Source: Chloroflexota bacterium (GTDB lineage: Bacteria; Chloroflexota; Anaerolineae; UBA3071). From it: a stretch of DNA of 13,506 nucleotides. The position numbers were made by a program, and so were the translations under genes. Every line of letters starts with the position of its first letter. The first letter of the stretch is position 1. Positions 1 through 13,147 of this stretch are shown in pieces. The notes under the pieces were generated by a model. It did not search any database, was not told where the DNA came from, and worked only from the letters and a program-made list of their open reading frames with translations. The stretch covers positions 1 through 13,506 of the forward strand of contig JACNHM010000255.1 in the NCBI GenBank assembly GCA_014383605.1, in the 5' to 3' direction.

Positions 1-62
1 GGCGTTTCAGGGTTGCAGGTTGAAGGCCAACCTGAAACCCTCGAACCCGAAACTCGGAACCC
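1..62. repeat. Period-7 repeat tract T1 with internal inverted repeat
   Basis: The sequence reads as degenerate heptamers: GTTTCAG, GGTTGCA, GGTTGAA on the left, then CTGAAAC, CCTCGAA, CCCGAAA, CTCGGAA on the right. The two halves face each other. Bases 9-22 pair with 28-41 as a 14-bp stem with one mismatch and a 5-nt loop (AAGGC). No T-run follows, so it is not a clear intrinsic terminator. The tract lies upstream of the first promoter in the window; the gene to its left is not visible. Its function is unknown. Confidence 0.6.
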
Positions 63-104
63 CTGTCATTATACCCGCTTTGGGAGGAAAGGGGAAACGG
101 CAAC

Positions 105-133
105 TTGGCCTTTGTGCTGCCTCGTGTTACAAT
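105..133 (+). promoter_or_regulatory. Sigma70-like promoter for the propeller lipoprotein
   Basis: TTGGCC (105-110), a 17-bp spacer and TACAAT (128-133). The predicted start of transcription is near 140, giving a leader of about 48 nt that contains the Shine-Dalgarno sequence GGAGG at 176-180. Spacer length and -10 box are good; the -35 box matches consensus at four of six positions. Confidence 0.6.
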
Positions 134-187
134 GGGCGGCGTGATGCGTGTTCCGCAGTCGCCATCACCAACGCCGGAGGGAGAATC

Positions 188-2278
188 ATGTCCAGAGCGC
201 TCCGTTCCATCCGTAGACTCACCGCAGCTCATTTTTCCATTTTCCATCGTCCATTCTCCATTTCCACCTGTAGCCTTGCGCTGCGCACGCTTGCGCTGCT
301 GCTGCTCCTCGTCCTGTTGCCCTTGGCGCTGGCCGCCTGCCCGCGAGATCGGACGCCCACGCCGACGGTGCCCGTCCCTTCGCCCACGTCACCGCCCACG
401 GCCACGCCAGTTCCCACGCTGCCGCCTCCCACGCCAGGGCCTTATCTGCCTCCCCTGCAATACTTCCTCCCCCCGCGGGCACGGGTGGTGCACGTGGTCG
501 CCGCGGACACCGACGACGATGGCGTGCAGGAGACCATCGTGCTCTACCGCGACAGCGACCAGCCGGACGCCGTCATCCGCGGGCTCGTCGCCGAGCCGCC
601 CACCCCCGAGACGCCCACGCCGACCCCTGCCGCCGAAGAGGTCCCCTTGCCTGAGGTCTACTGGCTGGGCGACGTGGCGGCGATGGCACTCTTCCAGGAG
701 AGATGGGAGAAGCTGCGCGTGGAAGACATCAACGGTGACGGCCGCAGCGAGTTGCTGTTGGAAGGGCAGTGGGATGCGGAGACGCCCGCCGTGCACGTCC
801 TGCAATGGGGCGGCGACGGCTACGTGCCGCTGCTCAGCTTCCAGGCCCGCGGCCAGTTGACCATGGAAGAGGATGACCAGGGGCGGCTGCGCTTCGCCAG
901 CCTGGAGCGTGTCTTCCCCCGTTCCGGCATCATCACCCGCGGCTCGGCCGCGTGGCAAGATGGCCGCTATCAGGTGCTGCAGGAGACGATCTGGGAAGCG
1001 GACGCGCCGCCCGATGCCCCCCATCCCGAGGCGGCGTTGCTGCACTACTACCAGGCCCTGGGCGCTGAGGACGCCGAAGCCGCCCGCCGCTGGTGGAGCG
1101 ACGCGCTCCAGGTTCAGCTTGACGCCGAGGCCCTGGCTGACCGCCTGACGTGGCGGCCGGACCTGCGACTGGAGCGGCTGGCGTTGCTGGAGGAGAGCGA
1201 GAACGCTGCCCGCGCCGCCGTGACCCTGCGCTGGACAGACCCTTTCGGCGAAGAGACGGTATGGAGTGAGGATGAGACGTGGGAGATCGTCCGCCAGGCC
1301 GACGGCTGGCGGCTGGCGCGGCTCAACGACACCCCGCTGGCGCCGGAGTGGCGAGCCTTCACCACCGATGACGGGCTGGCCGAGAACTTCGTCAACGATC
1401 TACTGCTCGATCGTCAGGGGCGTCTGTGGATCGCCTGCGGCAGCAGCGGCCTCACCGTGTGGAGCGATCCTCACTGGTTCACGGTGCGTCGGTCCGAGGA
1501 CGGGTTAGCCAGCGACAACGTGCGCGCCATGTTGCTCGACCCTCAGGGGCGCTATTGGTTCGCCACCCCAGCCGGCCTCACCCGCTACGACGGGCTGCGC
1601 TGGATCAACTACACCACCGCCGACGGCCTGCCCAGCGACGAGGTGCACGCGCTGGCCGCCGATGCGCAGGGCCACGTCTGGGCCGGGACGGCAGAGGGCG
1701 CGGCCCGCACCGACGGCCAAGGCTGGCAGCCGCTGCCTCTGCCTGACGACGTTCCCTCGACACCGGTCAGCGCGGTGGCCGTGGACGAAGAGGGTGTGGT
1801 GTGGCTGGGTCTGGGCAGTGCGGGGGGCGCGCCCGCCATCGCTCGCTACGACGGTGAGACCTGGCAGCTCTTCGGCCCGGAGGATGGCCTGGTGGGAGAC
1901 CGCGTCAGCGCGCTGGCCGTGGCTCCCGACGGCTCGCTTTGGGCAGCGATGGCCGGTGCTGCCGAGACCGGAGGCGGCCTGGGCGTTTGGACGGGCGAGG
2001 AGTGGCGTGTGCAGACGGCCTTCGACACGCTGGTGGACGTGCCCGTTTACGACATCGCCTTCGATGACCGCGGGGCCATGTGGATCGGCACGGCACAGGG
2101 CGCGGCCTACGGCTTCGGCGACGCCTGGCTGGCCTACACGAGTGAGGATGGCCTGGCCGACGGCCCGGTCAACGTCATCCTTGTGGCGCCCGATGACGTG
2201 GTCTACTTCGGCGCCGCCAACGGGCTGACCCGCTTCCGCGACGCCGTGCCTTTGCAGGTCATCGGCGGTGGACAGTGA
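188..2278 (+). CDS. Secreted lipoprotein with FG-GAP-like motifs and a seven-unit Reg_prop beta-propeller
   Basis: The start is ATG 188, with GGAGG seven bases upstream; the same frame is open back to base 20 but has no such signal there. The product has 696 residues. Residues 33-51 form a hydrophobic core ending in a lipobox (LAAC), so Cys51 is probably lipidated and the rest is outside the cytoplasm. A Thr/Pro-rich spacer follows (56-85). Two Ca-binding-type FG-GAP/VCBS motifs come next, DTDDDGVQE (107-115) and DINGDGRSE (180-188), separated by a second Pro/Thr spacer (137-148). Residues 283-380 may be an NTF2-like fold (weak). Residues 390-685 hold seven repeats of the two-component-regulator propeller type, with the recurring pattern DGL..V..L..D..G..W.GT..GL..Y. 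No kinase or DNA-binding domain follows, so it is a sensor-like or binding propeller, not a hybrid two-component protein. The ligand is unknown. The n-region contains period-7 tract T2. Confidence 0.85.
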   Translation: MSRALRSIRRLTAAHFSIFHRPFSISTCSLALRTLALLLLLVLLPLALAACPRDRTPTPTVPVPSPTSPPTATPVPTLPPPTPGPYLPPLQYFLPPRARVVHVVAADTDDDGVQETIVLYRDSDQPDAVIRGLVAEPPTPETPTPTPAAEEVPLPEVYWLGDVAAMALFQERWEKLRVEDINGDGRSELLLEGQWDAETPAVHVLQWGGDGYVPLLSFQARGQLTMEEDDQGRLRFASLERVFPRSGIITRGSAAWQDGRYQVLQETIWEADAPPDAPHPEAALLHYYQALGAEDAEAARRWWSDALQVQLDAEALADRLTWRPDLRLERLALLEESENAARAAVTLRWTDPFGEETVWSEDETWEIVRQADGWRLARLNDTPLAPEWRAFTTDDGLAENFVNDLLLDRQGRLWIACGSSGLTVWSDPHWFTVRRSEDGLASDNVRAMLLDPQGRYWFATPAGLTRYDGLRWINYTTADGLPSDEVHALAADAQGHVWAGTAEGAARTDGQGWQPLPLPDDVPSTPVSAVAVDEEGVVWLGLGSAGGAPAIARYDGETWQLFGPEDGLVGDRVSALAVAPDGSLWAAMAGAAETGGGLGVWTGEEWRVQTAFDTLVDVPVYDIAFDDRGAMWIGTAQGAAYGFGDAWLAYTSEDGLADGPVNVILVAPDDVVYFGAANGLTRFRDAVPLQVIGGGQ
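233..266. repeat. Period-7 repeat tract T2 inside the lipoprotein signal peptide
   Basis: Consecutive heptamers TTTTCCA, TTTTCCA, TCGTCCA, TTCTCCA and a six-base TTTCCA, all ending in CCA. They encode residues 16-27 of the lipoprotein, just before the hydrophobic core of its signal peptide. The AT-rich composition stands out from the GC-rich gene around it. Confidence 0.65.
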
Positions 2279-2284
2279 ATGAAA

Positions 2285-2312
2285 TCCAAACTCCAAAACT
2301 CAAAGCCCAAAA
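2285..2312. repeat. Period-7 repeat tract T3
   Basis: Four heptamers: TCCAAAC, TCCAAAA, CTCAAAG, CCCAAAA. The tract fills most of the 58-bp gap between the propeller lipoprotein and the polyprenyl synthase. It shares the 11-mer CAAACTCCAAA (2287-2297) with tract T5 (5222-5232), so the two use the same word and orientation on this strand. Confidence 0.65.
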
Positions 2313-2336
2313 ACGCGCTGGAAAACGGAGATGAGC

Positions 2337-3356
2337 ATGCAGGGTGCTAAAACCCGCTATTTGCCGTTGATCGAAGAGGCTTTGCGTGAGGTGCTGCGGG
2401 CGCCGCGGGAGACGCTGGCCGCCCACCACGCCATGATGCAGTACCACCTGGGCTGGTTAGATGAGGGTTTGCGGCCCCGGACGGGAGGCGGCGGCAAGCG
2501 GCTGCGGCCTCTGCTCTGCCTGTTGGCCTGCGAGGCGGCTGGTGGAGACGTGCAGGTGGCGCTGCCCGCGGCGGTGGCCATCGAGATCCTGCATAACTTC
2601 TCGCTGGTGCACGACGACATCGAAGACAACAGCCCCACGCGGCGCGGCCGGCCGGCCGTCTGGGCGCTGTGGGGCGTGCCCCAGGCCGTCAACGTGGGGG
2701 ATGCCCTGTTCGCCCTGGCCCATCAGACGTTGGGGCGGCTATCGGAACATGATGTGCCCGCCGCACGCCTGCTGGCGGCGACGCGTGCTTTCGACGATAC
2801 GTGCGTGGCCTTGACGGCGGGGCAGTTCCTGGACATGAGCTTTGAGGCGCGGCTGGATGTGACCGTGGACGAGTACCTGGAGATGATCGAGGGCAAGACG
2901 GCGGCGCTGCTGGGGCTTTCCACTGGCCTGGGGGCGCTGCTGGCCGGCGCACCCGGGCAGACGGCCAGCATGTTTCACCGCTTCGGCAAGAGCCTGGGGA
3001 TCGCTTTCCAGATCCAAGACGACATCCTGGGCATCTGGGGCGACGAAGCGCTCACCGGCAAGCCGGCGGCCAGCGACATCCTGGAGAAAAAGAAAACGCT
3101 GCCCGTGGTCTACGCGCTGGCGAGCGCCGTGGCTGAGCGCTTGCGGCCCCTCTATCGCCAACCAGAGCTGACGGCCGAGGACGTCCCGTCCGTGCTGGCG
3201 CTGCTGGAAGAGGTGAACGCTCGCAGCTATGCCCAGCAGTTGGCGGACGAGGCTCACGATACGGCGATGACCTGTCTGGCGCTTACCGGATTGAGCGAGG
3301 AGGCGCTGGCGCCGCTGCGGGAGTTGGCCGCATCGCTGCGAGGGCGGCAGCGGTGA
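2337..3356 (+). CDS. Polyprenyl (probably geranylgeranyl-class) diphosphate synthase
   Basis: A cytosolic trans-prenyltransferase that condenses isopentenyl diphosphate onto an allylic diphosphate, supplying precursors for carotenoids, quinone tails or lipid carriers. ATG 2337 is preferred because GGAG (2327-2330) lies six bases before it; ATG 2331 in the same frame abuts the GGAG directly. The product has 339 residues, the usual length for the family. Visible motifs, numbered from 2337: GGGGKRLRP (51-59), the first Asp-rich motif DDIED (93-97), KT near 187-188, FQIQDDILG with the second Asp pair (228-229), and GK with KKKTLP (241-256). Phe sits five residues before the first Asp motif, which in archaeal GGPP synthases limits the product to about C20; this makes C20 likely but not proven. 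It follows the lipoprotein gene at 58 bp on the same strand with no separate promoter that I can see, so the two may be co-transcribed. Confidence 0.9.
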   Translation: MQGAKTRYLPLIEEALREVLRAPRETLAAHHAMMQYHLGWLDEGLRPRTGGGGKRLRPLLCLLACEAAGGDVQVALPAAVAIEILHNFSLVHDDIEDNSPTRRGRPAVWALWGVPQAVNVGDALFALAHQTLGRLSEHDVPAARLLAATRAFDDTCVALTAGQFLDMSFEARLDVTVDEYLEMIEGKTAALLGLSTGLGALLAGAPGQTASMFHRFGKSLGIAFQIQDDILGIWGDEALTGKPAASDILEKKKTLPVVYALASAVAERLRPLYRQPELTAEDVPSVLALLEEVNARSYAQQLADEAHDTAMTCLALTGLSEEALAPLRELAASLRGRQR

Positions 3357-3359
3357 CGA

Positions 3360-3401
3360 AGCAAGAGGCAAGAAGCAAGAGGCAAGAGGCAAGATGCAGA
3401 T
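3360..3401. repeat. Period-7 repeat tract T4 (RGCAAGA)n
   Basis: Five perfect tandem heptamers of the form RGCAAGA (AGCAAGA, GGCAAGA, AGCAAGA, GGCAAGA, GGCAAGA at 3360-3394), then a degenerate TGCAGAT. It starts four bases after the synthase stop codon and lies in the 82-bp convergent gap before the stop of the gene on the other strand. This is the cleanest of the six tracts. I see no hairpin plus T-run terminator in the gap. Confidence 0.75.
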
Positions 3402-3438
3402 TTTGTCAGTGCCGCGCCGTCGAACCAGTGGAGGTCGG

Positions 3439-3984
3439 TCAGGGCACAGTGTAGGAGGATGAGTAGCTTGGTGCGCCCTCCAGTCCGTTGATCAGAGCAC
3501 GCAATATGCGCCGCGGTTCGGGGGCTTCCTGCGGCAGGGCGACGGCCGCTTCTTTCAGATAGATGAGCACGTCGCCGCCGTAAGTGGCGGGCTGCAAGGC
3601 ATCGTCGAGCCACTTCACCGCCTGCGGGGCCTGGCCGGTTTGCACCAACTCGTCCCGTACCATCTGCACCGTGACCAGTGCTTGTGGACTCACGTCTACG
3701 CGGCCATCAATGGCCCAGGTGGAGCGGATGAGGCCCAGCAGTGTGCTGGCGATCAGCGCCATCAGCAGCAGGGCGGAAACAGCCGCAAAGGCTGTCCGCC
3801 GCGCCCGTGAAGGCTGCGATGGCGGGGGCACGATCACCGTTGGCTGTCCGCTGACGATCTCCAACACCAGCGGCTGACGCCGCGGTCTCCGCTGCCGGCG
3901 CACCCACCAGAGCGCCGCGGCGATGGTGGCAAATCCCAACGCCACGCCGAAGGCAAACCAGTACTTCTTCTCTTTTGTTCCCAT
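3439..3984 (-). CDS. Two-helix membrane protein of unknown function
   Basis: I do not recognise a family. The start ATG is supported by GAGGTG five bases upstream (3990-3995) and by a good promoter just before it. The product has 181 residues. A short charged N-terminus (GTKEKKYW) leads into a first membrane segment (about residues 9-27), then a very basic linker (RRQRRPRRQ) and a Pro/Ser-rich stretch. A second membrane segment follows (about 66-88), then a soluble C-terminal part of about 90 residues. Under the positive-inside rule the basic linker is cytoplasmic and both ends are outside. The C-terminal part looks helical (ALVTVQMVRDELVQTG, AVKWLDDALQ), with no catalytic motif and no cysteine. 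It is the last gene of the leftward run but has its own promoter, so a functional link to HemW is not implied. Confidence 0.7.
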   Translation of the reverse strand: MGTKEKKYWFAFGVALGFATIAAALWWVRRQRRPRRQPLVLEIVSGQPTVIVPPPSQPSRARRTAFAAVSALLLMALIASTLLGLIRSTWAIDGRVDVSPQALVTVQMVRDELVQTGQAPQAVKWLDDALQPATYGGDVLIYLKEAAVALPQEAPEPRRILRALINGLEGAPSYSSSYTVP

Positions 3985-4044
3985 AGTCGCACCTCGCCGG
4001 GGCCGTTCGGTTGGAGCGGTGACGTCATCGGCCAGACAGCCCAG

Positions 4045-4073
4045 AGTATACCAGCAACGGGCGAGAAGGTCAA
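4045..4073 (-). promoter_or_regulatory. Sigma70-like promoter overlapping the 3' end of hemW
   Basis: Read on the - strand: TTGACC (4073-4068), a 17-bp spacer and TATACT (4050-4045). Transcription should begin near 4038, giving a leader of about 54 nt for the small membrane protein starting at 3984. The TGA stop codon of hemW (4072-4070) lies inside the -35 hexamer. It is one of the two strongest promoter matches in the window. Confidence 0.7.
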
Positions 4074-5218
4074 GAGGGCAGGAACTGCGCGAAGACCTGA
4101 TTGCCCAGCAGCCGCCCCCGCCGGGTCAGCCTGACCCGCTCCGGCAGCCGCTGCAAGAGCCCCACCTGTTCAAGGGCTGCGATCTCCTGACCGTACACGT
4201 CCAGCAGCGGTCGCCCAAAGCGGCGCTCAAAGGCGGCGAACTCCACCCCCTCCTGCACCAGCCGCAACCCCAGCATCATCGTTTCCCCCCTGCCCAGCGC
4301 GTCGTTGATCTCCTCGCTGCCTTCGATGGGAGATTGGTTCCGCTCTAGCCGCTCAACGTACTCGGCCGGTGAGCGCACGTTCCACCACCGCCGTCCCTCC
4401 CGGCTGGAATGCGCCCCCGCGCCGAAGCCCAGGTACGGCTGGTTGCGCCAGTAGGTCAGATTGTGGCGACAGGCTATGTCTGGGCTTTGTTTCGCCCAAT
4501 TGGAGATCTCGTAGTGCATGTAACCTGCGTCGGCCAGGAGGTCGCAGGCCAGCAGGTAGAGATCGGCGCCCAGATCGTCGTCGGGAGGAGGGACGCGGCC
4601 TTCGGCCACGCGCTGGGCCAGTGGCGTGCCCTCCTCCACGCTCAGACCGTAGAGGGAAAGATGCTCAGGCGCCAGGGCGAGAGCCTGGTCAAGGGTGCGC
4701 TGCCAGGTTTCTGTCCGCTGCCCCGGCAGGCCGAAGATGAGGTCGAGGTTGACGTTGGCGAAGCCCGCCGCACGGGCAGAGTGGAAGGCCGCCTCCGCCT
4801 CCGCCGCGGTGTGGATGCGCCCCAGGAAACGCAACTCGCCGTCGTCGAAGCTCTGCACGCCCAGGCTGAGGCGGTTGGCGCCCAGGCGGCGCAGGTCAGC
4901 GAAGCGCTGCTGATCCACCGTGCCCGGATTGGCCTCGCAGGTGATTTCCGCATCAGCTTGCACGGCGAAGGCGCGGCGGCAGGCGGCCAGGATGTCCGCC
5001 AGAAGATCAGGCGGCAACAGCGTCGGCGTGCCGCCGCCGAGGTAGATGGTCTTCACCGGCGGGCGCTGCCGCTGCTGCCCGGCGGCGGCGATCTCCTCCG
5101 TCAGCGCCCGGACGTAAGGGGCGAAGAGATGCTCCAGCCCGGCGTAGGAGTTGAAATCGCAATACAAGCACTTGCGCGGGCAGAAGGGAATGTGGATGTA
5201 AAGACTCAACAGGGCCAC
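4070..5218 (-). CDS. hemW: Radical SAM heme chaperone HemW
   Basis: A cytosolic radical SAM protein of the HemN/HemW family that binds heme and delivers it to haemoproteins; older annotations often call it oxygen-independent coproporphyrinogen oxidase. I place the start at GTG 5218: GGAG is seven bases upstream (5226-5229) and the family-typical N-terminus begins right there (YIHIPFCPRKCLYCDF). The frame is open to an ATG at 5353, but that would add 45 unconserved residues and overlap the next gene. The product has 382 residues. The 4Fe-4S cysteines are C13, C17 and C20 (CxxxCxxC followed by DF, as in HemW). Other motifs are GGGTPTLL (61-68), GVQSF (120-124), DLIFGLPGQ (159-167), YEISNWA (236-242), the heme-binding HNxxYW motif HNLTYW (252-257) and GFGAGAHS (264-271), then a HemN_C-type tail. 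It lies 110 bp downstream of the glycosyltransferase, with a hairpin island and a heptamer tract between them. Confidence 0.93.
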   Translation of the reverse strand: MALLSLYIHIPFCPRKCLYCDFNSYAGLEHLFAPYVRALTEEIAAAGQQRQRPPVKTIYLGGGTPTLLPPDLLADILAACRRAFAVQADAEITCEANPGTVDQQRFADLRRLGANRLSLGVQSFDDGELRFLGRIHTAAEAEAAFHSARAAGFANVNLDLIFGLPGQRTETWQRTLDQALALAPEHLSLYGLSVEEGTPLAQRVAEGRVPPPDDDLGADLYLLACDLLADAGYMHYEISNWAKQSPDIACRHNLTYWRNQPYLGFGAGAHSSREGRRWWNVRSPAEYVERLERNQSPIEGSEEINDALGRGETMMLGLRLVQEGVEFAAFERRFGRPLLDVYGQEIAALEQVGLLQRLPERVRLTRRGRLLGNQVFAQFLPS

Positions 5219-5219
5219 A

Positions 5220-5247
5220 GTCAAACTCCAAATCTCAAACTGCAAAT
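5220..5247. repeat. Period-7 repeat tract T5, carrying the hemW ribosome binding site
   Basis: Four heptamers on the + strand: GTCAAAC, TCCAAAT, CTCAAAC, TGCAAAT. Read on the - strand this gives TTTGGAGTTTGA, whose GGAG (5226-5229) sits seven bases before the GTG start of hemW. The repeat word therefore supplies the Shine-Dalgarno sequence. It shares the 11-mer CAAACTCCAAA with tract T3. Confidence 0.65.
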
Positions 5248-5251
5248 TGCT

Positions 5252-5300
5252 CCGGCTGGATCGCCAGATCCAGCTGCCGGCCGACGGGTCCGGCGATCCG
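5252..5300. other. Overlapping inverted repeats upstream of hemW
   Basis: Two perfect 8-bp stems share bases: GCTGGATC/GATCCAGC (5255-5262 with 5267-5274, 4-nt loop), and GGATCGCC/GGCGATCC (5258-5265 with 5292-5299, 26-nt loop). Because they share 5258-5262 they cannot form together. Neither is followed by a T-run on either strand. The island lies between the glycosyltransferase stop and the hemW ribosome binding site. It could be a processing site, a weak terminator or an alternative-pairing leader; nothing in the sequence decides which. Confidence 0.4.
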
Positions 5301-5328
5301 TAGCGAACGCAAAGGTGAGGGCGTGGGG

Positions 5329-8300
5329 TTAGCGGAGAGTGGGGTTCACCCAATCCACGGCATCGCCGCGTCCCTCGAAGTGGCCCTCTTCGATCTGTTT
5401 CAGGGTCATGAGCTGCACGCCGGCCACGTCCACGTCGAAGGGGGTGGGAGGATCCCAGGGGTGGATCTGGCCGCTGTCCCAGAGGACCTGGCCGTCGCCG
5501 AGGATCTGCATCTGGGTGTGAGAGTCGCCGTAGGTGTCGGTGTCCACGCCCGCCAGGCCCTGGAAGCGCAGGTAACGTCCCGCCAGGTCAAAGTCCACTT
5601 CGCTCGGTCCGTAGACGCCGATGCCGTGGTCGTACATCGTGCTTCCCAGCTTCATGGGCCAGCCCTGGAAGTTGGCATCGCCGATGGGCTGGTTGAACTT
5701 GGAGTCGCCCAGGCGTGCGGCGACGATGGGCACGGTACCGGCGAGTTCGCCCGCGGCATCCAGGATGCGCAGCACGGGGGGCGGGTTTTCGGGCGGCGTC
5801 AGGGCTTGGGCCAGGTCGTCCTCGGTCCAGCCCAGGATGTCAGGGGGTAGAGGGCCGGGCGACTGGCCGGGCGGTGTCCAGCGGGCTTCGAACCAGTGGC
5901 TGCCGCCGTTGTCAATGTAGTCAATGCGCAGGCTGTGCCAGCCAGGCGTGAGATCGGCCGGGCGATCTACCCAGCCGGCGCCGTGCAGGCCCCAGTTGTC
6001 CACCACGAGCTGACCATCTATCCACAGGCGCGAGCCGTCGTCCGAGGACAGGCCGAAGCTGTAGAGGCCCGCTGCCGGGATGCGGATGCGGCCGAGCCAG
6101 CGTATGGCGTCGGTGGCCAGGTCGCCACCGTTGTCGGCGTAAAGCGAGGTATCGTGCGTGATGCGCACAGGGGGCGTGCGCAGGCCGCCGCCTTCGAAGT
6201 GGAGCGCCAGCAGGCCGCCATCAGGGATGCCCAGGGGATACCAGTTCTGCTCAGGGATGGGCTCCCAGTCGCCTGCACCGGGCAGTCGCCAGAGGAGGCG
6301 CGGGGCTGCCGCGCCGGCGAGGGCGATCTCCAGGCGAACGGGAACAAGCCCCCCGGGCAGGGTGAGGGAAATCGGCTGGGAGGGGGTCTCCAGCACCGTG
6401 CGGCCGGCCAGGGTGAGGCGCAGGCGATCCACCCCTTCCACGCGCAGGCCATAGGCCCCTGGACTCGGCAGGTAGAGGCCGCCGCGCAGCTCTGCGCTTG
6501 CCGGCGGCGTGAGGGGCGGGGGATCGAAAGATGTCACCCCGGCCACGGCGGGTTCGCCGCCAGGCTCCAGGCTGGCCCACCAGGTTCCTTGCAGCCCTTT
6601 TTGGGCGACGGTTTCGGCGTTCAGCCGCACGCTGGTGAAGATGGGCTGGCCGTTTGGACCAAGGCCCGGTTCCATCAGGGCGTCGGGGTAGAGACCCTGG
6701 AGGTGGGGGAGAAGGTAGCGACCGTAGGTGCCCAGGATATAGGCAACGGGGCCGGTCTGAGCGGGTGGCGGCGGGATGTGGTCGGGGGCTTTGAGGCGCG
6801 TGAGCGGGCGGCCCGGATTGATGACCTCAATGGGCGAAAAGGCCCAGAACTCGCGGTCGAGGTAGATGGTGGCGTCGTCTGGAAGGGTGGCGATGTACTG
6901 GCCGACGCGGGTGGGGCCGACGTTGAACATGCCGACGACGCCGGGATGGGTAGCCTGGACGTTGAAGTACTGGGTGAGATTCAGGTAGGCGGCAGCGGTG
7001 GCGGCAATGGCGAGGAGGGTGGCGGCCACCAGGTACTGGATATTGGATATTGAGGGGCGTTTTGAACCGCCGCGTTTCGGCCAATATCCAATATCCAGTA
7101 TCCAATCCCCGACTGCCTGCATGGCCAGGCCGGCCAGGAGGGCGATGGCCGGGGTGAGGACGTAGATGCGGAAGGTGTTGGGGGCTTCGGTGGAGAGGAT
7201 GCCCACGGCCAGAAAAGGCAGGACCCAGAGGAGCAGGAGGGCGTGGTGCGGACGCCGGGGGCGGCGCAGGGTCAGGGCCAGGCCCAGGACGGCCAGCACG
7301 CCGGTGATGGGGTCGAGCATAGGCTCGCCGGGGATGTTGTGGCGGCCGTTGTGGTCGCCGCGGAAGTGGAAGACGCCGGCGTACTTGCCGATGTTTTCTT
7401 GGAGGGTCGCCCAGGGGTCACGGGTGAAGAGGGGGTTGAAGATGCTGATGGCCCGGCTGCGCTCCAGGAACAGCTCAGGATTTTGGACGTAGGTCCAGGC
7501 CAGCGGGGCGTAGACGAGGGCGAAGAGAACCCAGAAGACCACTATCCGCGGCCAGAAGCGGCGGAAATAGCCGCGCGGGCAAAGGGCGCGGTACACCAGA
7601 AAGACGGCAACGATGGCGACGAGGGCACGCGTGCTCTGGTAGGAGTACTGGCTCAGCCCCAGGGCCAGGCCGCTGAGTATCCACCACCGCCACTTGCCGG
7701 TGGCCTGGGCACGCCAAAGCAAGAGAAAGACGGTGCAGATCCAGAAGAGCGTGAGGGTATTGGCGTGTCCCCAGCGGCTCATGTTGACCGACCAGCGCAT
7801 CGTGGCCCAAAGAAGGGCGCTGAGGAAAGCGATGGGGCGGTCGAGGAATTGGCGGGCCAGCAGATACAGCACCGGCGCGGTGAGAGTGCTGGTGATCAGA
7901 TGGGGAAGTTTGACGGTGAGGTAGCCAGGGCCGAGGAGCTTGTAGAAGAAGGCGACGTAGTAGTGATAAAGCCAGGGCACCTCCAGACGGGCAACCTGCC
8001 AGGGTTTGGGGCGCAGGCCGTTGAGGATGTCCAGGGCCTGTTTGGCGATGTCGGTCTCGTCCAACCACAGGCCGCTCGGGGTTTCGGCGATGCGGTAGAA
8101 GCGGGCGGCCGCCGCCACAGCGGTGATGATCAAGACAGCCAGGAGATCGGCCGGGAGGGACCAGCGCGAGGGCAGACCTGGAATGCGCTGGCGCCGCCAT
8201 AGCTGCCGGGTCTCGATCACGGAGAGGGCGAAGAGGAGAGCACCCAGGGCCAGGAGCACGGCGCCCAGGGGCCAGGTCAGGGTGCTGCCCGGCTGCCGGG

Positions 8301-8391
8301 CCTGCTGCAGGACCCACTGGCCGGCGACGGCCAGGGCCACGGCCAGGGCCGTGAGCAGAGATCGTAGTATCAGGGTCTGAGGTCGGGTCAT
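5329..8391 (-). CDS. GT39/ArnT-like membrane glycosyltransferase with C-terminal PA14-PA14-NPCBM modules
   Basis: A polytopic GT-C-type protein of 1020 residues. ATG 8391 has GAGGA five bases upstream, and the gene begins 11 bases after the stop of the FHA regulator, so the two should form an operon. Residues 1-470 hold about ten or eleven membrane segments. After the third comes the family's acidic loop motif, PSGLWLDETD (105-114), where D111/E112 are the expected catalytic or metal-binding acids. Such enzymes move a sugar from a polyprenyl-phosphate donor to an acceptor outside the membrane. After residue 480 the chain is soluble and presumably outside: a degenerate PA14-like unit (about 600-705), a canonical PA14 domain (about 742-842, with SSDDGSRLWIDG), and an NPCBM-type carbohydrate-binding domain (about 893-1016, with MYDHGIGVYGPSEVDFDL). 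Typical GT39 proteins end soon after the membrane part, so about 500 residues are extra. Residues 429-453, a loop between two membrane segments, are encoded by heptamer tract T6. Donor and acceptor are unknown. Confidence 0.85.
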   Translation of the reverse strand: MTRPQTLILRSLLTALAVALAVAGQWVLQQARQPGSTLTWPLGAVLLALGALLFALSVIETRQLWRRQRIPGLPSRWSLPADLLAVLIITAVAAAARFYRIAETPSGLWLDETDIAKQALDILNGLRPKPWQVARLEVPWLYHYYVAFFYKLLGPGYLTVKLPHLITSTLTAPVLYLLARQFLDRPIAFLSALLWATMRWSVNMSRWGHANTLTLFWICTVFLLLWRAQATGKWRWWILSGLALGLSQYSYQSTRALVAIVAVFLVYRALCPRGYFRRFWPRIVVFWVLFALVYAPLAWTYVQNPELFLERSRAISIFNPLFTRDPWATLQENIGKYAGVFHFRGDHNGRHNIPGEPMLDPITGVLAVLGLALTLRRPRRPHHALLLLWVLPFLAVGILSTEAPNTFRIYVLTPAIALLAGLAMQAVGDWILDIGYWPKRGGSKRPSISNIQYLVAATLLAIAATAAAYLNLTQYFNVQATHPGVVGMFNVGPTRVGQYIATLPDDATIYLDREFWAFSPIEVINPGRPLTRLKAPDHIPPPPAQTGPVAYILGTYGRYLLPHLQGLYPDALMEPGLGPNGQPIFTSVRLNAETVAQKGLQGTWWASLEPGGEPAVAGVTSFDPPPLTPPASAELRGGLYLPSPGAYGLRVEGVDRLRLTLAGRTVLETPSQPISLTLPGGLVPVRLEIALAGAAAPRLLWRLPGAGDWEPIPEQNWYPLGIPDGGLLALHFEGGGLRTPPVRITHDTSLYADNGGDLATDAIRWLGRIRIPAAGLYSFGLSSDDGSRLWIDGQLVVDNWGLHGAGWVDRPADLTPGWHSLRIDYIDNGGSHWFEARWTPPGQSPGPLPPDILGWTEDDLAQALTPPENPPPVLRILDAAGELAGTVPIVAARLGDSKFNQPIGDANFQGWPMKLGSTMYDHGIGVYGPSEVDFDLAGRYLRFQGLAGVDTDTYGDSHTQMQILGDGQVLWDSGQIHPWDPPTPFDVDVAGVQLMTLKQIEEGHFEGRGDAVDWVNPTLR
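7034..7108. repeat. Period-7 inverted-repeat tract T6 inside the glycosyltransferase gene
   Basis: The left part reads TACTGGA, TATTGGA, TATTGAG; the right part reads CCAATAT, CCAATAT, CCAGTAT, CCAATCC. The 19-mer TACTGGATATTGGATATTG (7034-7052) has a perfect inverted copy at 7082-7100, with a 29-base loop. The tract is 75 bp long (25 codons) and stays in frame. It encodes residues 429-453 of the glycosyltransferase, between two hydrophobic segments. Its low GC contrasts sharply with the coding sequence around it, which suggests insertion. Confidence 0.75.
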
Positions 8392-8402
8392 CGTTGTCCT
8401 CG

Positions 8403-9053
8403 CTATGGAGCCTGTTCAAAACGGAAGCCGTGGCCGCGCACGGTGACCACGTATTGGCGCTCGTCGTCCAACTCTGCCAGACGCTCCCGCAGGCGGCGCA
8501 CCAGCGCGTCAATGGCCTGCTCCGACACGCCTTCTTCCAGCGCTTCGGGCCAGACGGCGTGTACCACCGTCTCGCGGCTGACGATGCCGCCCCTGGCTTC
8601 TGCCAGGAGTTTGAGCAGGCGGTACTGGGCAGGAGAGAGGGGTGGGTCCAGCAAATGGCTGCCAATGTAGACCTGGTGTGTGGGCTCGTCCAGGCGCAGG
8701 CCGGCCTCTGCGGCTTCGGGAAAGGTCAGCGGGGCCGTGGCCCCGGCGTCCACGAAGGCCAGCTTGAAGCGCAAGGCGATCTGAATCTCGTCGCCATCTT
8801 CGAGAATCTGCGTCGCGGCCAGCTCGCGGCCGTTGACGTGGGTGCCGTTCTTGCTGCCCAGGTCCTCCACCACGTAGCGGCCATCGGCCCAGGAGATGCG
8901 GGCGTGGTAGCGAGAGATGTGACGATCGGGCAGGGTGATGTCGCAATCCTCGCCCCGGCCAATGGTGAGCGTGCCCTGTCCCAACGGCCAGCGCCGTCCC
9001 GTGCCCGCGCCTTGCTGCAAGATCAACATCGCGCTCTCACGAACCTGCGCCAT
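8403..9053 (-). CDS. FHA domain / OmpR-type winged-helix transcription regulator
   Basis: A cytosolic regulator of 216 residues. The start ATG is preceded by GGAGGTG with seven-base spacing (9061-9067). Residues 20-100 are a forkhead-associated domain with its phosphothreonine-binding residues intact: IGR (31-33), S47-R48-Y49-H50, and SKNGTHVNG (67-75). Residues 125-213 are a winged-helix DNA-binding domain of the PhoB/OmpR C-terminal class ([45 protein letters not shown]). There is no receiver domain, so the FHA module replaces phospho-Asp signalling. It diverges from a Ser/Thr kinase gene 53 bp away and is followed at 11 bp by a membrane glycosyltransferase. The likely model is that the kinase phosphorylates a threonine that FHA reads and DNA binding changes. 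Mycobacterial EmbR is similar in idea but has the opposite domain order and an extra BTAD domain. I see no confident promoter separate from the shared region. Confidence 0.9.
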
Positions 9054-9068
9054 GGTATTTCACCTCCA

Positions 9069-9085
9069 TTTGACAAGATGTCAAA
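9069..9085. promoter_or_regulatory. Perfect dyad, candidate operator between kinase and FHA regulator
   Basis: TTTGACA-AGA-TGTCAAA: two perfect 7-bp arms around a 3-bp centre, in the 53-bp divergent intergenic region. The left arm contains the TTGACA -35 box of the kinase promoter; the right arm is a TTGACA box on the opposite strand. A protein bound here could block the kinase promoter and affect the regulator promoter. The FHA/winged-helix protein encoded alongside is the obvious candidate, but OmpR-type proteins more often bind direct repeats, so this remains a guess. The symmetry may also just reflect two back-to-back -35 boxes. Confidence 0.5.
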
Positions 9086-9098
9086 CCTGGGTCATAAT
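9070..9098 (+). promoter_or_regulatory. Sigma70-like promoter for the Ser/Thr kinase
   Basis: A perfect TTGACA (9070-9075), a 17-bp spacer and CATAAT (9093-9098). Transcription would begin near 9104-9106, only a few bases before ATG 9107. No Shine-Dalgarno sequence lies between, so the mRNA is predicted to be leaderless or nearly so. Confidence 0.75.
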
Positions 9099-9106
9099 CT
9101 ATCGCC

Positions 9107-10180
9107 ATGAACAAACCACTGCCCAGCGGAACCGTACTGCGATCTCGCTACCAGATCGTTGAATTGATCGGCCAGGGAGGCATGGGCGCCGTGTACCGCA
9201 CCGAGGATCTGCGCCTCCGGGGGCGGGAATGCGCTCTGAAAGAGATCCAGCCCGAACTGGGGGGCATCCCCGAAACGCTGGAGCAGACCCGCGAGCAATT
9301 CTACCGCGAGGCCAGCGTTCTGGCGCGCCTCGATCATCCCACGCTGCCCAAAGTCTCTGACTACTTCTCCCACGAGGGCCGGGAATACCTGGTGATGGAC
9401 TACGTGCCCGGCCCCGATCTGCGGGAGATCCTGAACGACGCCCGACGGCAGGGCAAGTTCCTGGCCGAGAAAACGGTGCTGGAGTGGGCCAGGCAACTGA
9501 GCGATGCGCTGGAATACCTGCACACTCAGAAGCCAACAGTGCTGCATCGCGACATCAAGCCTTCCAACATCAAACTGACGCCCCGCGGCCAGCTCAAGTT
9601 GGTGGACTTTGGCCTGGTTAAGCTGTTGTTGCCCGATGACAGCCGTACGGTGACCGTGGTGCAGGGGCGGGGCACAGCGCAGTACACGCCCCTGGAACAA
9701 TACGGCGGCGACACGGGGCACACGGACGCCCGCTCCGACATCTATTCCTTGGGAGCGACCCTTTACCACCTGCTGACCGGCACACCGCCGGCCGATGCCA
9801 AGGAGCGTTTCCTCCGACCGGGCAGCCTGACGCCACCGCGAGCGATCAATCCCGACATCTCGCCCCAGACGGAGAGGGCCTTGCTGCAGGCGATGGCCAT
9901 GCATCCGGATCAACGCCCGGCCTCGGCGGCCGACTGGAAGACCATGCTGTTCAGCGCGCCGCCCTCGCTGCAAGGCGCTGGCGTTCCCGTGCTCGGCCGC
10001 AGCGAGTGGGCACAGGCGACACAGGCCAACCGCTGGCTGATCGCTGCCACCGTGGGTTTGGCCACCGTGGCCCTATTGGTCACCCTTTTCGCTCCGCTGT
10101 TGCCCCAGGAATCTCCCCCGGCGACCGGAAGCAACCTGCCGGCAACGCTGGCCACCCAGACGCCGCCAGCTTCTCCCTGA
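9107..10180 (+). CDS. Membrane-anchored Hanks-type Ser/Thr protein kinase
   Basis: A PknB-type kinase of 357 residues. ATG 9107 is chosen from the family-typical N-terminus ([21 protein letters not shown]) and the promoter just upstream. The kinase domain covers about 14-280 with all key residues present: Gly-rich loop GQGGMG (22-27), Lys45 in ALKE, Glu68 of helix C, HRDIKPSN (147-154) with catalytic Asp149, DFG (167-169), and [10 protein letters not shown] (189-198) in place of the usual APE. The activation segment has several Thr/Ser residues that could be autophosphorylated. One membrane helix (about 310-332) is followed by only about 25 residues rich in Pro and Thr, so there is no PASTA or other large external sensor. 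It diverges from the FHA regulator gene, which makes that protein its most likely partner. Its stop codon is one base from the stop of the convergent GH3 gene. Confidence 0.93.
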
Positions 10181-10181
10181 A

Positions 10182-13049
10182 TCACGGGCGTTTCGTCGCC
10201 GCACGGGCAGCTTGCCAGCCGCGCACGAGCAAGGGCAACGATCCCCCGATGAAAGCGACGACGGCCGCTCCCCACGGCCCCATCCCCCGTTGCAGCCAAC
10301 TCGCGCCGGGCAGCCAGCCCAGGCCATACAGCACGTAGGCCGCCAGTCCCCCGATCAATCCCCACAGGGCAGAAGCCAGCAGCCGCATGGGCGTGTGCCG
10401 CATGCTCATGGACAGCAGATAGCCGATGGCCGCGGCAATGGCCGAGGCCAGCAGTCCCAGAACGAAGGCCGTGACGCTGACGCGCCGCGGGGGCGGCAAG
10501 GGTGTTTCGGGTATGGGTGCTGGCGTGGGCACGGGCGTGGGAGTCAGGGTAGGCGTCGTGGTGGGGGTGGTCGTGGGCGTGGCCGTCGGTGTCGCCGTGG
10601 GCGTGGTCGTCGGTGTGGGCGTGTCGGTGGGCACCACGGTAGCGATGGTGGCCGGCTGGTCGCCCTGGATGTTCACGACCAGTGTGGTGGACTGCAACGC
10701 CGGCGGGCTGCTGGCCGAGACCCACAACTCGCCAGTGCGCTCCAGGGTCACGCTGACCTCGACCACGCCTTCGACGGTCGTCTGCACCTGGCGAGGGAGT
10801 TCCAAGGCCTCGGCGGGGTAGAACAGCTTGAACTCCACGGGCGTGCCATCGGGCACCGCATGGCCGTTACGGTCGAGAATGACACTGGTGCGCAGGCGCA
10901 GCGTGCTTCCCACATTCACATCTATCGCTGCTGCCGGCTCCTCGCCCGCGGCCACGCTCGCCAGCATCACCTGGATGATTTGATTGGGATCTGGCTCGGT
11001 GCGTTTTAGCAGATCGTAGTTGATGCCGGCGATGCTGACGGGCGGCGCGCCGGCGGGGGTGAATTCGCGGAACAGGGCGCGCACCGAAGCTTCCAGGAAA
11101 GGCTGTGTCTTGGCGTAGACACCGTAGTAGGCCGTCAGTTTGCTGATCTCGGTGGTGTCCAGGAAATAAGGGGCGTTGTAGGCCATGGCGATGAGGTTTT
11201 TGCCCCGCAAGCTGTCGGAGCGCAACCGCAGGAACTGTTTCACGGCGTCGGAGTCGGGATAGTCTTCCTGGTTGAGGTCCAGCATGGCGAAGATGACCCA
11301 TTCCGCCTCTTGAATCAAGGCCTCCATCTCCAGTGCTTCAGCTTCGCCCATCTCATCACGCAGGAAGGCCTTGAGCTGGCTGAAGGTGAGGCTGTTGACC
11401 CGTTCGGGATCCACCTGTCCGCTGGCTGCCGGGCCGTAGAGGCGCAGCATGATCTCTTCCAGGGCTGTGGGCGAGATCAGAGGGAATGCAGGGCAGTCGC
11501 CGCATTCGCTCACCTGGCGAGCCTCGGTGACGATGAGGATGTTCTCGTCCGCCAGCGGCGCGCTGGGCAACCGGTCGGCCAACTCCTCAAGCCCGGGATA
11601 GATCAGGGTAATGGCCTCGCGGGCCACCCGAGCCACCGCCGCCTGGCCCTGGGTCATCACCTCGCTCAGCGCCTCCAGAGGGACCTGTGTGCTGGGCCAA
11701 TCCAACTGGGGGTAGAGACGGAGCTTGAGGGTCAGGATGCGCGTCACCGCCGCGTCCACCCGCCGCCGGAAGTCGGGGTCACTCTCGTACTTCTCGCGGA
11801 AGAACTGGATCGTCTCCTTGATGTTGGCGAACTGGTCGGGCCAGGCGTCGGTGAGGGAAAACTGCGATAGCAGTAACAGGTCATTCCCGGCCAGGAAGGC
11901 TTCCTGGGCGATCTGCCGGTGCGGGAACTTCTGCAGCTGCGGGTCGTAGTGGCGGCGCACGGCGGGCACGCCCAGGGCATCGGTGACCAGCACGCCCCCT
12001 TGCTGGCGCCAGGCGGCGAACTCCGGCAGGGCCATCAGGTCCTGCAACTGCGGCGCCAGGCTGATGGGCGGGGTGAGCTGGCGGATGTTGCCCTGGAAAC
12101 CGCGGTAGCGGATGTGGGAAGACATCAGCGCCGCCGCGCTGCCGGACCAATCGCCGCTTTCGGCGCCGCGCACCACGGCGGCAAAGGGGGCCAGTTCGAC
12201 GGAGCGCAGTTGCTGCAGCGATTTCTGTACCGTGGCCACCTCGTCATCCGGGCGGCGGTCGCTGCCTCCCTGTCCGGGAAAATGTTTGGCCACCGTGGCC
12301 ACGCGGCCGCTGCTGCCCTCTTGCACGCCTCGAATGTACGCCTGCCCCAGTTTGCCCACCCAGTAGGGGTCACCGCCAAAGGTGCGGGTGCCCAGGTCGC
12401 CCTTGCCGCCGGGCCGCGGGTTGTCCAGCACGTCCAGCGAGGGGCCCAGGAGCAGGTTGATGCCGACCGCCTCCAGCTCACGGCCCACGACCTGTCCCAC
12501 TGCCTGGGCGTTGGCCGGGTTCCAGGTGGCGCCGATGGCCATGTTGCTGGGCAGGGGGTTGAATCCGTTGAAGAGATAACTGTAGGGGAAGCCGTCGCCC
12601 TCCTGCACGATGGCGGCAAACAGGGGGACAGGAAAGCTTTCCGCCGGCTGTGTGGGGGTGATGACCTCTCCAGTCTCGGCTGTGGGGGGAACAGGGATGG
12701 GCAGTGGCTGGCTGAAGGGCCAGGTCTGCAATCCTCTGGTCAGTTGCGCGACCTGGTCAGGCGTGTCTCCTTCGTTGCGATAGTTGCCGTTGGAGGCCAG
12801 CAGCACCACGCCGCCCACGCGGTAGTCGCGAATGAGTTGGGCGATGTCGGAGTTCGGCCCCACGTCTGTGCCGGCGAAGGAGACCAGGAAAAGCTGTCCC
12901 ACTTTGTCGGCGGTGGACATTTGGGCCATCACCTGCTGGACAGCATCCGAGGTCTCCTGTGCGGCCGCGGCACGCGGCGCGCCCAATCCGCTGAACGCCA
13001 GAGCGATCACCAGGAGCCATCTAGCCATTCCGCCTGCCCGCTTCTTCAT
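10182..13049 (-). CDS. Secreted, membrane-anchored GH3 family protein with Ig-like domain and Thr-Pro linker
   Basis: ATG 13049 is chosen because GGAG is ten bases upstream (13060-13063), a promoter lies at 13075-13103, and a classical signal peptide starts there (cleavage near AAAA-QE, residue 30). The frame is open to 13136, but those starts lie upstream of the promoter. The product has 955 residues. Residues 40-420 form a GH3 N-terminal barrel of the NagZ type, with LDV (205-207), TFGGDP (223-228), KHFPG (255-259) and VTDALG (355-360), where D357 is the expected nucleophile. The region where NagZ carries its Asp-His acid/base pair (GHG....DSH) reads GQGGSDRRPDDE, with no His, and the DQEGG motif reads VQEGDG. 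Activity is therefore doubtful or altered. A GH3 C-terminal-like domain follows (about 450-690), then an Ig-like domain (about 700-800), a Thr-Pro linker (about 806-845) and three membrane helices. The NagZ family removes N-acetylglucosamine from peptidoglycan fragments; the substrate here is not known. Confidence 0.85.
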   Translation of the reverse strand: MKKRAGGMARWLLVIALAFSGLGAPRAAAAQETSDAVQQVMAQMSTADKVGQLFLVSFAGTDVGPNSDIAQLIRDYRVGGVVLLASNGNYRNEGDTPDQVAQLTRGLQTWPFSQPLPIPVPPTAETGEVITPTQPAESFPVPLFAAIVQEGDGFPYSYLFNGFNPLPSNMAIGATWNPANAQAVGQVVGRELEAVGINLLLGPSLDVLDNPRPGGKGDLGTRTFGGDPYWVGKLGQAYIRGVQEGSSGRVATVAKHFPGQGGSDRRPDDEVATVQKSLQQLRSVELAPFAAVVRGAESGDWSGSAAALMSSHIRYRGFQGNIRQLTPPISLAPQLQDLMALPEFAAWRQQGGVLVTDALGVPAVRRHYDPQLQKFPHRQIAQEAFLAGNDLLLLSQFSLTDAWPDQFANIKETIQFFREKYESDPDFRRRVDAAVTRILTLKLRLYPQLDWPSTQVPLEALSEVMTQGQAAVARVAREAITLIYPGLEELADRLPSAPLADENILIVTEARQVSECGDCPAFPLISPTALEEIMLRLYGPAASGQVDPERVNSLTFSQLKAFLRDEMGEAEALEMEALIQEAEWVIFAMLDLNQEDYPDSDAVKQFLRLRSDSLRGKNLIAMAYNAPYFLDTTEISKLTAYYGVYAKTQPFLEASVRALFREFTPAGAPPVSIAGINYDLLKRTEPDPNQIIQVMLASVAAGEEPAAAIDVNVGSTLRLRTSVILDRNGHAVPDGTPVEFKLFYPAEALELPRQVQTTVEGVVEVSVTLERTGELWVSASSPPALQSTTLVVNIQGDQPATIATVVPTDTPTPTTTPTATPTATPTTTPTTTPTLTPTPVPTPAPIPETPLPPPRRVSVTAFVLGLLASAIAAAIGYLLSMSMRHTPMRLLASALWGLIGGLAAYVLYGLGWLPGASWLQRGMGPWGAAVVAFIGGSLPLLVRGWQAARAATKRP
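10519..10632. repeat. Low-complexity Thr-Pro linker coding repeat
   Basis: A degenerate 6-bp repeat (GTSGGN on the + strand) that encodes a run of TP, TPT and ATPT units in the GH3 protein on the - strand. It separates the surface domains from three C-terminal membrane helices and should be an extended, possibly O-glycosylated stalk. Short relatives of it occur in the propeller lipoprotein (residues 56-85 and 137-148) and in the kinase tail. Confidence 0.75.
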
Positions 13050-13074
13050 GACATGCAATCTCCGCCTGGGCCTA

Positions 13075-13103
13075 AGTATACTCATTTCCGGACAAAGCGT
13101 CAA
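13075..13103 (-). promoter_or_regulatory. Sigma70-like promoter for the GH3 gene
   Basis: Read on the - strand: TTGACG (13103-13098), a 17-bp spacer and TATACT (13080-13075). Transcription should begin near 13068, leaving a leader of about 19 nt that still contains GGAG at 13063-13060. This position rules out the longer in-frame starts at 13136 and 13082. Confidence 0.75.
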
Positions 13104-13147
13104 CTGAGCGCAGCGCGCCGTGGCGCTGACGTTCATCGGGCTGAGAG

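Follow-up and report, generated by a model that had tools for sequence, protein, structure and literature searches.

The window analysed here is the whole 13,506-nt stretch of contig JACNHM010000255.1 from a Chloroflexota bacterium (assembly GCA_014383605.1; 66% GC). It carries six tracts, T1 to T6, in which short words recur about every seven bases (Table 1). Comparison with related genomes shows an excess of such tracts at lag 7, words that recur between unrelated flanks, and a strong polarity of foldbacks in two word families. It also shows orthologous sites that are filled in some genomes and empty in others, and differing words at one orthologous site. The tracts may be tiny dispersing repeat cassettes, which would insert at a site, change there by slippage and in some cases be replaced, a reading to which we give a little less than an even chance. 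Such cassettes would be non-coding, about 25–130 bp long, and built as single arrays or foldbacks from a handful of word families per genome, mostly heptamers and less often octamers or words of about 9 nt. They would disperse into intergenic gaps and tolerant protein loops, where slippage and point mutation would alter unit number and letters, and at one site a cassette may vanish or give way to a cassette of another word. We infer that filled sites arose by insertion, that what is copied is just the array or foldback, and that a replaced cassette was first lost and another then inserted.

The period of seven

All six tracts reported in the initial annotation are present at the positions given there. 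The exact 7-bp period claimed for them holds for T2, T4 and T6, with lag-7 matches of 0.74 in T2, 0.80 in T4 and 0.92 and 0.89 in the two arms of T6, against only 0.18–0.46 at lags 5, 6, 8 and 9. The remaining three are looser: the right arm of T1 matches at 0.57 at lag 7 versus 0.56 at lag 8, T3 at 0.71 versus 0.65 at lag 8, and T5 equally well at lag 6 (0.59) as at lag 7 (0.57). T1 and T6 are inverted pairs rather than single tracts, and both are predicted to form strong hairpins (DNA folding z of -3.96 and -6.3, respectively). T3 and T5 do have the reported 11-mer in common (CAAACTCCAAA, at 2287 and 5222), all six tracts are richer in AT than the window (GC 0.36–0.58 versus 0.66), and four of them, T1, T3, T4 and T5, are intergenic as described, with T6 in a gene and T2 in the 5' part of an open reading frame (ORF).

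Within the window, three segments score at least 13 at lag 7, none at lags 5, 8, 9, 10 and 11, and two each at lags 6 and 12; 30 order-1 Markov copies of the window yielded no such lag-7 segment. The wider count was made on N-free sequence of relatives rather than on the window's own genome, at a score of at least 14. The nearest relatives among the genomes found are Chloroflexota drafts, the closest being G029 (glycosyltransferase 84% identical). Its 291 kb hold 31 tracts at lag 7, none at lag 5, 17 at lag 6, eight at lag 8 and two at lag 9, with 23 each at lags 12 and 14. G005 has 14 at lag 7 (eight at lag 8), G007 has 13 (three at lag 9), G008 five and G001 four. The signal is weak in G246 (four; lag 6, three) and in G041, where lag 7 (three) does not exceed lag 6 (four). 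G391 has no lag-7 tract in 100 kb, and 674 kb of mainly Clostridia loci have none at score 14 and one at score 12. Order-2 Markov copies gave means of at most 0.5 (0 for G029). The autocorrelation check proposed with the initial annotation is thus positive, lag 7 standing above lags 5, 6, 8 and 9 in the tract-rich relatives, and tracts are not confined to the window. The lag-7 excess is a lineage-specific property. Period 7 is special in several relatives, yet it is not strictly fixed, as octamer and ~9-nt foldbacks occur in one gap described below.

Words, foldbacks and orthologous sites

The 40 tracts of G029 fall into 11 word clusters, and 35 of their 780 pairs have an identical consensus word, whereas 40 letter shuffles gave 2.35 such pairs on average and never more than 7; a few of the 35 pairs are the two arms of one foldback. 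Identical-word pairs are similarly frequent in G005 (16/105 versus 0.3 shuffled) and G007 (21/153 versus 0.3). Hence the notion that each tract uses a word of its own fails beyond the window, where families recur. The same applies to the contrast drawn with the short tandemly repeated repetitive (STRR) sequences of cyanobacteria, which were said to use one word per family. STRR are heptamer tandem repeats with several word families per genome, so that the contrast does not hold, and G029 conforms to this multi-family pattern. The T4 word recurs exactly in four G029 tracts, and five of the six window words (T4 being identical) lie within one letter of some G029 word; since shuffled words come as close in 604 of 1800 trials, this likeness is only modest. 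Flanks of same-word tracts gave no matches to one another (30 tracts in five families, T4 of the window included), which speaks against a larger mobile element surrounding them. Of five G029 families, three have their variable positions clustered inside the word (P 0.001, 0.0035 and 0.018) and two do not (P 0.17 and 0.31). In the GAAC family, clustering has P<0.0005 on loci selected in part for this very pattern, and P 0.052 on other loci.

Neighbouring tracts at most 200 bp apart (35 pairs) are inverted in 22 cases, direct in four and of different words in nine. The order of the arms is biased, as judged from matches that overlap inside long arrays and are not independent sites. Among 58 genomes of the order of Geomesophilobacter, which we take to be Geobacterales, GTTC arrays stand left of GAAC arrays in 622 matches from 28 genomes, and the reverse order occurs 17 times in five. 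In 100 genomes of the class of G029, TTGG-then-CCAA was matched 303 times in 18 genomes and the reverse 90 times in 17; most of the reverse cases listed consist of other words (CCAATGA, CCAAATC), with CCAATAT in G070 also among them. For the family of T1, counted from the backward-read controls of these TTGG/CCAA searches, GGTT-then-AACC has 164 matches in 20 of the 100 genomes and AACC-then-GGTT six in five. T1 itself, with GGTT left and AACC right, agrees with the majority order.

A total of 142 sites were placed relative to genes: 74 in codirectional gaps, 10 in convergent and five in divergent gaps, 45 in genes and eight at edges. Of the positions expected for intrinsic terminators (the end of an operon, a convergent gap, behind a last gene), these counts cover convergent gaps. 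The in-gene counts come from a codon-usage gene caller and are upper estimates, because the caller may read through open tracts. Divergent gaps thus hold 5 of 89 intergenic sites, compared with 68 of 462 among all gaps of at least 40 nt. An RNA-level structured element is not supported by the 27 foldbacks examined, whose arms show neither covariation nor a sense-strand excess of G-U: Watson-Crick pairing is 0.57 within elements versus a mean of 0.53 between elements (maximum 0.63 of 500), and sense-strand A-C outnumbers G-U by 32 to 15, the opposite of RNA selection. A separate observation concerns contig C26 of G404 (L269:2-133), where a GTTCTAC array, nearly perfect and some 19 units long, starts at base 2; such arrays may break assemblies.

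The gap between guaB and purA was compared in eight genomes of the family of G108. Both genes were named on G386 and the remaining loci found by DNA match; L258, L263 and L264 were excluded, their upstream stretch not being shared. Seven of the eight gaps hold a foldback, in four word classes, and the gap of G165 measures 13 nt only. G386 and G348 carry octamer foldbacks of the TGACAAGG type. G465 and G464 carry heptamers (GGGGATT/GGGGACT), from which AATACCC of G128 is one letter away. G470 has a near-perfect, heptamer-like palindrome of the TGAATGA type, three letters from the words of G465/G464 and of G128, and G376 a ~9-nt foldback of the ACGAATT type. Folding ranges from weak (z of -2.0 in G128 and -2.2 in G464) down to -8.6. 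Gap identity between word classes is 0.36–0.56, and within classes 0.80, 0.71, 0.52 and 0.50 (for six of the genomes, which do not include G376), while the 1.4 kb upstream are 85–90% identical in the five closest genomes (G386, G465, G464, G348 and G128).

Four Geobacterales relatives provided a second comparison, in regions some of which were chosen because they bear foldbacks. Nine of 43 distinct orthologous gaps hold a tract scoring at least 11 in at least one genome, and in six of these nine at least one orthologue scores 0. A tract-free version is tight (-4 to 18 nt) in five of the six; other gaps that lack a tract measure 128, 181 and 200 nt. GGGG-type foldbacks take the place of GTTC in G408 at two sites, with words 3–4 of seven letters from those of its relatives and no closer than letter-shuffled words. 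Depending on the relative, one site holds a foldback of GTTC, one of the GGGG type, or none. In two other gaps the words are 2–3 letters apart, compatible with drift. Repeated matches at L220:7838-7935 suggested another dispersed element, which was dismissed, since the alignment of this stretch has no internal gap in any of the four relatives, as is usual for coding sequence. On the same locus, a palindrome at L220:2318-2350 (GTAGGGGCACGGCGCGCCGTGCCCCTAC) is dispersed in the Geobacterales relatives and distinct from the heptamer foldbacks; it looks like a repetitive extragenic palindrome (REP).

G029 aligns to positions 7–137, 2353–3356 and 5327–13109 of the window, so that two blocks (Table 1) are missing at its orthologous place. 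The Reg_prop gene of Block 1 finds only partial similarity elsewhere in G029. No HemW orthologue was found elsewhere in the draft of G029 (best match 28% identical, E 3e-8), and the block with hemW may therefore have been lost, gained or overlooked by the draft assembly. All four block borders have a tract within 100 bp: T2 lies ~95 bp from the left and T3 ~40 bp from the right border of Block 1, T4 at the left border of Block 2 and T5 ~80 bp from its right border. In G029 a single GGTTTCA tract sits alone between the polyprenyl synthetase and glycosyltransferase genes. T1, with drifted units, and T6, as an array, are common to both genomes.

T6 is likely an in-frame insertion, judging from the glycosyltransferase loop that it occupies. 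This loop spans 88 aa in the window, 85 aa in G029, and 66–69 aa without a lag-7 array in L092–L095; the other loci submitted to this comparison failed to match the anchors. Protein P0002 has more units than the window, and P0004, read from protein only, a different repeated motif. In P0003 and P0005–P0014 the loop measures 67–88 aa and is read as array-free from protein alone; as P0005, P0010 and P0012 reach 88 aa, loop length by itself proves nothing.

Origin of the tracts

Insertion and replacement of cassettes are suggested above all by the orthologous sites. Local slippage does not turn a word into a distant one, or a heptamer into an octamer, between flanks that stay 85–90% identical, and there is scant seed for an array in gaps of -4 to 18 nt. 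The initial annotation had proposed a dedicated generating mechanism; simple local slippage does not explain the differing words at single sites in guaB-purA and in the Geobacterales. Ordinary long simple sequence repeats are nevertheless a serious alternative, although on balance an improbable one: replication slippage, favouring steps of 7 nt because of the polymerase footprint, would act on local sequence where selection tolerates it, and words would drift by point mutation. In most genomes heptanucleotides are reportedly the most frequent class of long repeats, and a polymerase-contact idea has been put forward (Mrazek 2007, cited by PMC4679880 and PMC4692102). The drifted units of T1, the additional loop units of P0002, an apparent local expansion of TTCACCA in G408 and the one-letter difference between G128 and G465/G464, which looks like drift, agree with such slippage, whereas words 3–4 letters apart or of another unit length at a single site, filled sites opposite tight gaps, the few recurrent words per genome and the strong polarity do not. 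The hairpins and arrays might instead be selected functional sites, for example 3' mRNA stabilisers, attenuators or sites of the integration host factor (IHF)/HU type as proposed for Geobacter metallireducens. Any word would serve, and the sequence would therefore be free to be replaced. The foldback present in seven of eight guaB-purA gaps, the within-word clustering of variable positions and the scarcity in divergent gaps would fit. Since 45 of 142 sites are called in genes, orthologous sites can be empty, arms pair no better within than between elements with A-C above G-U, T2–T5 are unfolded and the window has zero Rfam matches at the gathering score, we regard selected sites as unlikely.

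Two further accounts appear still weaker. If arrays were repair scars, i.e. filler DNA from joining gene blocks, they would mark rearrangement borders, as the position of T2–T5 at both blocks would allow. This is a single small locus compared with a draft, where the absence of hemW may be incompleteness, and tracts also occur in gaps whose neighbouring genes keep their order on either side (guaB-purA, Geobacterales); the idea is very improbable. REP doublets moved by Y1 tyrosine transposases (the REPIN/RAYT system) are likewise short, palindromic, dispersed and mostly intergenic (PMC3116915). An inverted-doublet hairpin of the REPIN kind is found in T1 and T6, and not in T2–T5. The transposase family PF01797 is present in 10 of 13 genomes, yet has no matches in the tract-rich G005 and G075, and the surroundings of 30 Y1 loci contain one tract in 85.8 kb compared with 0.67–1.08 per 10 kb elsewhere. 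A palindrome starting with GTAG is a hallmark of REP, and separate palindromes of this kind coexist with the tracts in the same Geobacterales. A Y1 transposase as the mover is not supported, and the REPIN explanation is hardly credible.

Several results weigh against the cassettes themselves. T2–T5 show no folding in the DNA test and are single arrays without a foldback partner; neither a target-site duplication nor a mobiliser was seen, and the lack of PF01797 in G005 and G075 and of any tract enrichment near Y1 loci counts here as well, as do the apparent TTCACCA expansion in G408 and the apparent drift between G128 and G465/G464. In the gene of a methyltransferase with an FtsJ domain (similar to RlmM, but below the model cut-off), a loop carries lag-7 arrays in six of nine genomes and none in G348, G181 and G108, though it is long in G348. 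Its three word classes (TCACG-, CAGAC- and CGCAAT-) are shared between genomes, and the loop thus reads as a composite tract whose parts decayed differently, not as replacement. Moreover, the genomes compared are mostly drafts and several regions were chosen for holding foldbacks.

A more speculative possibility, which we consider doubtful, is a dedicated repeat-writing activity, e.g. a reverse transcriptase that uses a short template or a polymerase acting on folded-back ends. It would make arrays and foldbacks of fixed period from a vocabulary particular to each genome, and plant or overwrite them at genomic sites. A period set by the enzyme and a word set by the template would explain why the period stays constant while words change, why one insertion can combine several words and why related species differ in the word at one site. 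DRT10, an enzyme from bacteria, writes short tandem repeats off an RNA template; its repeats are 9 nt long and occur in cDNA, and the accessible part of the source was not found to describe genomic arrays (PMC12632851). If true, a writing enzyme would represent a new kind of genome-modifying activity.

Known repeats and features of the window

Heptamer tandem repeats, inverted pairs included, are already known in other phyla, according to the portions of the literature available. In G. metallireducens, the element Gmet_H4 and the class 3 elements are tandem heptanucleotides as here; GGACCGG has 49 copies between and inside genes, MTYCTGA occurs in pairs on opposite strands, and class 1 is an octanucleotide (PMC2700814). 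In the one genome concerned, these elements were interpreted as putative regulatory RNAs or as IHF/HU sites, and replacement at orthologous sites was not found in the available text (PMC2700814). The GGGAATC repeats of Xanthomonas and GGGGA(C/T)T repeats of Nostoc also form heterogeneous heptamer arrays, often as inverted pairs, and vary in length and sequence between species at the same genes (PMC4692102). There, as far as that source could be consulted, one word was studied per genome, 83% share the gene context and the type is usually preserved, in contrast to the several words, some replaced, seen here. TAACTGA repeats, too, are heptamer tandem repeats scattered over phyla, but have a fixed word and lie mostly just before start codons in one genome, whereas words vary in our case and many tracts lie past stop codons or in genes (PMC4679880). 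REPINs resemble the foldbacks as tiny dispersed hairpins with mobile-like behaviour, and differ by a conserved 16-mer and a linked RAYT, compared with heptamer arms and no link to Y1 here (PMC3116915). In the accessible open-licence literature, no description was found of heptamer tracts in Chloroflexota or of word replacement at orthologous sites. Bacterial heptamer repeats have been noted for decades, and their origin is addressed by hypotheses only in the literature found. Comparing orthologous sites, where one gap with like foldback geometry holds another word or unit length, is a direct route to separate slippage from insertion or replacement, and the present comparison supplies named sites for that separation.

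Table 1 Tracts, blocks and genes of the window
Feature	Position	Strand	Description
T1	1–62		Foldback, left arm ~5–22, right arm ~28–62; family GAAACCT/GGAACCC; upstream intergenic
T2	233–266	+	Single array TTTTCCA; 5' part of Reg_prop ORF, or just before the gene
T3	2285–2312	+	Degenerate single array CCAAACT/CCAAAAC; between Reg_prop and polyprenyl synthetase genes
T4	3358–3401	+	Single array GCAAGAG; begins 2 nt past polyprenyl synthetase stop
T5	5220–5247	+	Degenerate single array CAAACTC/CAAATCT; directly upstream of hemW start
T6	7034–7108		Foldback, arms 7034–7052 and 7081–7106; TTGGATA/CCAATAT; in frame within glycosyltransferase gene
Block 1	138–2352	+	Reg_prop gene near T2, T3; absent here in G029
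Block 2	3357–5326	-	Small ORF and hemW near T4, T5; absent here in G029
Reg_prop gene	in 138–2352	+	Lipoprotein-like; PF07494
Polyprenyl synthetase gene			Stop 2 nt before T4
Small ORF	3439–3984		Without Pfam match
hemW	4070–5218	-	TIGR00539
Glycosyltransferase gene			Large; PMT_2/PA14/NPCBM domains; carries T6
FHA regulator gene
Ser/Thr protein kinase gene	9107–10180
GH3 protein gene

The Ser/Thr kinase gene matches the PADLOC profiles of PD-T4-6, which is probably only a generic kinase likeness. The GH3 gene contains, at 10552–10623, an in-frame 24/12-base repeat that codes for a Thr/Pro-rich stretch.

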